Source of the DNA: Planctomycetota bacterium
GTDB lineage: Bacteria > Planctomycetota > UBA1135 > GCA-002686595
Length of the DNA: 64,000 bases
Direction of reading: 5' to 3'
NCBI GenBank assembly: GCA_002686265.1
Contig: NZBA01000050.1
Span: 124,001 to 188,000, forward strand
The translations under genes and the position numbers were made by a program. Numbering within the stretch: the first letter of the stretch is position 1; every line of letters starts with the position of its first letter. Of the stretch, positions 38,989 through 39,225 are shown piece by piece. The notes beneath the pieces are model-generated. The model saw only the letters and a program-made list of their open reading frames with translations. It searched no databases and had not been told where the DNA came from.

Positions 38989-39225
38989 GCGGATGTCCTG
39001 ACTCGTCGCTCTCTCCGGCGCGTGGAACCTTCCCGGTCACGCACCCCTCGCGGGTTGCGTGGACCAGTGGTCCGATCTGCGGGGCGGGTGATCCCTCTTC
39101 GAGGGCCCGTTCGCGGATCGCGGGCGCGTCGGCGCACGACTCACAGTGGCGGGTCCGTCCAGGATTCTCACCCGGTTCCCCGCGCAGGGTCGCTCCAGTT
39201 GTCAGCCCAGGACCCTATGCCCCGC
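38989..39225 (-). promoter_or_regulatory. cobalamin (AdoCbl-class) riboswitch
   Basis: Minus-strand GTCCTG (39213-39208) pairs with CAGGAC (39000-38995). Core GGGGAACCGGGTGAGAATCCTGGACGGACCCGCCACTGTGA, 3' box GAGTCAGGACATCCGCCGGGG, and a GCGA-capped internal hairpin ACGCAaCCCGCGAGGGgTGCGT. Confidence 0.9.

Follow-up and report, generated by a model that had tools for sequence, protein, structure and literature searches.

BtuG is a seven-bladed surface lipoprotein with femtomolar affinity for B12 that has been reported from Bacteroidetes only, with BT1954 and BT2095 as Bacteroides examples; in these loci, the propeller itself binds B12 (PMC6143338, PMC10404256). Other exported B12 binders are BtuH (PMC8941943) and the DUF4465/BtuJ proteins, of which a Mucisphaera member has been tested (PMC13398666). 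The locus described here lies on the minus strand of a 64,000-nt stretch of DNA (the window), part of a Planctomycetota bacterium assembly of 5.07 Mb in 135 contigs that is 92% complete. Like BtuG, the protein family that it represents is an exported beta-propeller placed under a B12 riboswitch and associated with BtuCDF genes as well as a BtuH-like partner. It differs from BtuG in having six blades and a beta-sandwich instead of seven blades, in the lack of a lipobox, in its occurrence in Planctomycetota without an adjacent BtuB seen, and in giving no significant sequence match to BtuG, which is absent among the 60 of 78 matches listed when the family profile is compared with PDB sequences. 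Because blade number, lipobox and sequence similarity are all unlike those of BtuG, we regard the family as BtuG-like in role, and not as BtuG. With DUF4465/BtuJ, it has in common that exported B12-scavenging proteins are encoded in riboswitch loci; those proteins have a jellyroll fold, unlike the window propeller, and no DUF4465 Pfam match was found in the window protein or in the proteins of cluster 3, a frequent neighbour of the family (see below). Mucisphaera is itself a planctomycete.

The riboswitch aptamer and its promoter

The first-pass annotation had proposed a cobalamin riboswitch at this position, to be checked against the Rfam covariance models. A scan of positions 38700–39500 with all 4227 families and no cut-off gave a match to RF00174 at 39181–38991 (minus strand) with 31.4 bits and an E-value of 4.5e-6. 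The gathering cut-off of this family is 31.5 bits, and a scan of the whole window at gathering thresholds returned a tmRNA and tRNA only, with no cobalamin riboswitch; the element falls 0.1 bit short, which is why the default scan is silent and why routine annotation overlooks it. Both hallmarks of the RF00174 consensus, the core GGGAA..GGTG..A.TCC..CCGCCACTG and the 3' box CAGGA, are present, the former as GGGGAACC...CACTGTGA at 39181–39141 (listed among the features as GGGGAACC...CCGCCACTGTGA), with the same core in relatives, and the latter as GAGTCAGGACATCCGCC at 39004–38988. Core, box and the ATG at 38877 were all located on the minus strand where they had previously been placed. The core aligns to RF00174 in textbook manner, and the same alignment displays a long peripheral insertion, which probably accounts for the low score; the distance from core to 3' box is 136 nt, in line with the earlier reading of a long segment of about 140 nt between ACTGTGA and the box. 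The element thus resembles other RF00174 members in its core, peripheral region, 3' box and position upstream of a B12-related gene, and differs from them in its score just under the cut-off, its long peripheral insertions and its control of an unannotated gene. In a relative of the same genus, RF00174 is found at the same place with 40.3 bits, and it exceeds the cut-off in 54 of 61 related genomes, the scores of relatives ranging from 40 to 108 bits.

Including the closing helix P1, the aptamer extends over 39193–38980 (minus strand). P1 pairs GCGACCCUGC (39193–39184) with GCCGGGGACGC (38990–38980) and is formed in the minimum free energy (MFE) fold; across 23 family leaders, P1 strands from one genome pair better than strands mixed across genomes (permutation P 4e-4). 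The first-pass annotation had assigned the closing role to a long-range helix GTCCTG/CAGGAC, which we reject: GTCCTG (39212–39207) is promoter DNA that overlaps the −10 hexamer upstream of the likely start and is therefore probably not transcribed, and CAGGA belongs to the invariant aptamer core. The promoter (39240–39212, minus strand) consists of a −35 element TTGACG (39240–39235), a 17-nt spacer and a −10 element TAGGGT (39217–39212), and would start transcription near 39205. It is conserved in family leaders, of which 9 of 23 have the pattern TTGAC-N-TANNNT at the corresponding place (0.01 expected in shuffles) and 13 of 23 carry TTGAC (0.8 expected); a stricter promoter consensus scan did not flag the TTGACG/TAGGGT pair. 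Taken together, we hold the window element to be, with near certainty, a cobalamin riboswitch. No second credible RF00174 match was found in the 5.07-Mb assembly beyond the window copy, so the window gene appears to be the only target of a B12 riboswitch there. A further match, of 16 bits on contig C110, looks spurious, the core being absent from its sequence.

The leader and a candidate translational switch

Between the aptamer and the gene, the MFE fold contains a hairpin (38970–38910, minus strand) in which CCGGCCTC (38970–38963) pairs with GAGGTCGG (38917–38910), and which we predict to be the ON state. The helix GAATGGG/CCCATTC (38959–38953/38924–38918), which had been put forward as the expression platform, does exist in this fold, yet only as the middle of the longer and possibly switchable hairpin. 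Matched strands of the hairpin outperform mismatched partners in 11 leaders (P 0.012). Within the hairpin sits an anti-Shine-Dalgarno sequence, GGUGGAUCCUCCG (38943–38931), complementary to the Shine-Dalgarno (SD) and spacer CGGAGAUCCAC (38890–38880); the SD itself, GGAG (38889–38886), lies 8 nt before the ATG. Complementarity between mid-leader and SD region reaches a z of −2.8 in the window leader and a mean z of −1.17 over 20 leaders, relative to shuffles, and it beats shuffles in most relatives tested (for example, z of −3.3, −2.8, −2.8 and −2.4). When 38971–38966 was blocked in silico, the probability of pairing between anti-SD and SD rose from 0.10 to 0.75. The SD is already mostly paired in the unconstrained fold (0.24 unpaired), so that the predicted contrast between ON and OFF is modest. 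No intrinsic terminator was found in the leader, which does not favour transcriptional attenuation, and the competition between the anti-SD and the longer hairpin suggests translational control.

In comparison with RF00174, the window platform resembles an anti-SD/SD switch to which an extra conserved hairpin has been added directly upstream of the SD, TTCGA-CGCGACT-TCGAA (38907–38891, minus strand). In 17 hand-aligned leaders, 80 of 85 cells of its stem are paired, with a two-sided change from TTCGA/TCGAA to TTCTG/CAGAA. The test of matched against mismatched strands gave no support for this hairpin (P 0.16), owing to its nearly invariant stem. Its general form is TTCGA-CGNNNNN-TCGAA, with a loop that starts with a conserved CG, and the pattern occurs twice in the genome. 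It could be an element of the platform, or a site for a protein or the ribosome.

These features would fit the following scheme. Without ligand, the 38970–38910 hairpin would form and bury the anti-SD, and translation would go ahead. Ligand binding would stabilise P1 and the aptamer core, and loop L5 would take the ACCG of 38971–38968; by analogy with known cobalamin riboswitches, we infer that this contact, which in the window's own genome would span 3 bp only, opens the leader hairpin. The anti-SD thus released would pair with the SD and spacer before the AUG and stop translation. In this direction of control, which like the export of the protein is deduced, the riboswitch would repress the exported propeller when B12 is plentiful; the propeller would bind corrinoids outside the cytoplasm and deliver them to the uptake system in the manner of Bacteroides BtuG.

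The exported propeller and its genomic settings

The only near downstream gene (38877–37525, minus strand) encodes, as the first-pass annotation had claimed from its start at 38877, an unannotated secreted protein, 450 aa in length and with no Pfam or NCBIfam match. Read by eye, its signal peptide ends in ..SLLTAAPGAAQ/DT, and there is no lipobox cysteine at this end (..APGAAQDT), nor in close relatives. An AlphaFold2 (AF2) model built from a 35-member alignment (pLDDT 90.3, pTM 0.85) has 24 strands in residues 55–337, which makes six four-stranded blades of a beta-propeller (about residues 55–337), followed by a C-terminal nine-strand beta-sandwich (about 341–450). A search of PDB sequences with the family profile gave weak matches to YWTD and diisopropylfluorophosphatase (DFPase) propellers. 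The highest Foldseek TM-scores were obtained with six-bladed NHL and designed propellers (0.67–0.77 by target); cobalamin-bound BtuG (8okv, 8bmz) was recovered with an E-value of about 5e-7 and a TM-score of about 0.43, not among the best matches. The model thus places the window protein in the fold class of BtuG, a resemblance of fold class only.

Homologs of the propeller were identified in 30 of 41 related genomes, and RF00174 lies directly upstream in 28 of these 30; in one of the two exceptions the homolog is at a contig end, and in the other the genome has no RF00174 match. A phylum-wide sample contained a homolog in 40 of 294 Planctomycetota genomes, and among the loci tested RF00174 was upstream at 18 and at the head of the operon in two more; at L155, core and box are present although cmscan gave no match. 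The linkage is not accidental, for the pairing recurs in these 28 of 30 related genomes as well as in the majority of the distant Planctomycetota tested. Conversely, of 63 riboswitches examined, 8 of which gave no clear downstream assignment, 35 precede the window propeller family, 9 precede cluster 3 (a secreted protein of about 345 aa), 6 precede cluster 14 (a second propeller family), 4 precede BtuC or BtuF, and 1 precedes what reads in sequence as a PduO-like adenosyltransferase. Cluster 14 (L074:7759-8955(-), L090:5155-6567(-), L078:455-1705(-)) comprises riboswitch-controlled secreted propellers of YncE/YVTN type from relatives, which possibly replace the window family functionally. Other settings include a cobalamin riboswitch before a secreted repeat protein of about 830 aa (L083, G025:C440:18781-18986), and another some 140 nt ahead of a gene whose product, judged by eye, looks like an AAC(3)-type acetyltransferase; a BtuF-like gene lies close by on the opposite strand (L085, G018:C147:774-1023).

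In most members of the order, the propeller gene stands alone behind its riboswitch. More distant members lie in btu-transport loci with a B12 riboswitch: the order riboswitch-BtuC-BtuD-BtuF-propeller is found at L181, L182, L123 and L124 (L182 and L124 look like one region), and the order riboswitch-BtuC-BtuD-BtuF-CobA-propeller-CobU-CbiB-CobD-CobQ at L122, where CobA, CobU, CbiB and CobQ exceed their NCBIfam cut-offs. No BtuB was seen adjoining the propeller genes in B12-riboswitch loci. At five loci (L120, L177, L193, L188 and L192), the propeller gene adjoins a member of cluster 3, whose proteins are similar to the N-terminal portion of the B12-binding BtuH domain found in Bacteroides BtuG1. 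The match is weak (HMMER E-value of 0.24 against all PDB sequences; hhalign E-value of 1.2e-4, probability 55) and includes a common motif, FAxxVxxYxPxxG...SLGxxGGxxTxGF; the AF2 model of cluster 3 is poor and the fold search made with it uninformative. Cluster-3 proteins, which are under the same type of riboswitch as the propellers and often encoded next to them, share this motif with BtuH and the BtuH domain of BtuG1 (PDB 7biz, 8blw); it is this neighbour and not the window protein that matches. These sequence similarities are suggestive of a relationship between cluster 3 and the BtuH domain. Cluster 3 (L074:9025-10062(-), L073:2494-3534(+), L091:10297-11328(+), alignment A4) also weakly matches LIC_13355, an NCBIfam family of Leptospira lipoproteins that may be related to B12 binding; the BtuH fragment did not match the LIC_13355 model. 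Paired back-to-back cobalamin riboswitches with divergent propeller and BtuH-like genes occur at L075 (G020:C846:2767-3245) and L093 (G037:C53:19018-19393).

The window's own genome has 21 matches to B12-binding domains, and hence B12-using proteins. A set of BtuC/BtuD/BtuF-like genes on contig C23 (L197) and two TonB-receptor genes, on contigs C42 (L195) and C120, are located away from the propeller gene, and no riboswitch was found beside any of them. The C42 receptor scores best as a heme-type receptor, with BtuB further down the list.

Function of the propeller family

Since the pairing of riboswitch and propeller occurs phylum-wide and in places inside B12-uptake clusters, the protein is very probably a part of B12 scavenging. 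We consider it likely that the riboswitch represses, at plentiful B12, an exported propeller that serves corrinoid uptake, most likely through predicted extracytoplasmic binding of corrinoids. The first-pass annotation had not proposed a function for the gene; its context makes an accessory role in B12 uptake probable. Direct corrinoid capture by the window protein is probable as well. The fold alone says little, because propellers are versatile, and an uptake regulon might include a propeller that does not bind corrinoids and instead docks to or organises the outer-membrane receptor, or acts as an enzyme that liberates corrinoids from their binding proteins or from organic matter. The lactonase-type and NHL propellers among the top structural matches, the weak profile matches to diisopropylfluorophosphatase and YWTD propellers, and a C-terminal beta-sandwich that could be a docking domain would all suit such roles. 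However, no catalytic residues were identified that would point to an enzyme, and the placement of riboswitch-controlled propellers beside BtuH-like or BtuCDF genes parallels the Bacteroides loci whose propellers bind B12 (PMC6143338, PMC10404256); we therefore judge a non-binding role unlikely.

Control by B12 might also serve a purpose other than uptake, for example if the protein is an adhesin or a surface protein whose production is restricted to times of B12 scarcity. It is indeed secreted and lacks annotation, and most members of the order encode it as a lone gene behind the switch. The distant members inside BtuCDF and cob operons make this quite improbable. It is harder still to believe that the element is degenerate or due to chance, and does not regulate in its own genome: its score is just below the Rfam cut-off, but the core and box are intact in the window, together with P1 and the SD platform, and the element recurs at the same position in the same-genus genome (40.3 bits) and across the order.

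Returning to corrinoid uptake as the preferred reading, we favour, with some reserve, a broader proposal: the window protein would found an undescribed family, spread across the Planctomycetota, of six-bladed propellers that are under riboswitch control, carry no lipid anchor and are predicted to capture corrinoids outside the cytoplasm in a manner BtuG-like but independent of Bacteroidota, with BtuH-like partners, and many unannotated secreted proteins of the phylum would be parts of B12 uptake. A search of the freely accessible literature found no paper linking propellers to cobalamin riboswitches in Planctomycetota or describing a BtuG-type system there. The window leader is a clear candidate for a translational riboswitch. 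If the proposal is true, it would assign a role to a protein family that has no name and is encoded in about one in seven of the Planctomycetota genomes sampled. BtuG-type capture has so far been described only from gut Bacteroides, and the Planctomycetota case would extend its range, indicating that propeller-based scavenging of B12 arose or spread beyond the gut, in environmental bacteria.
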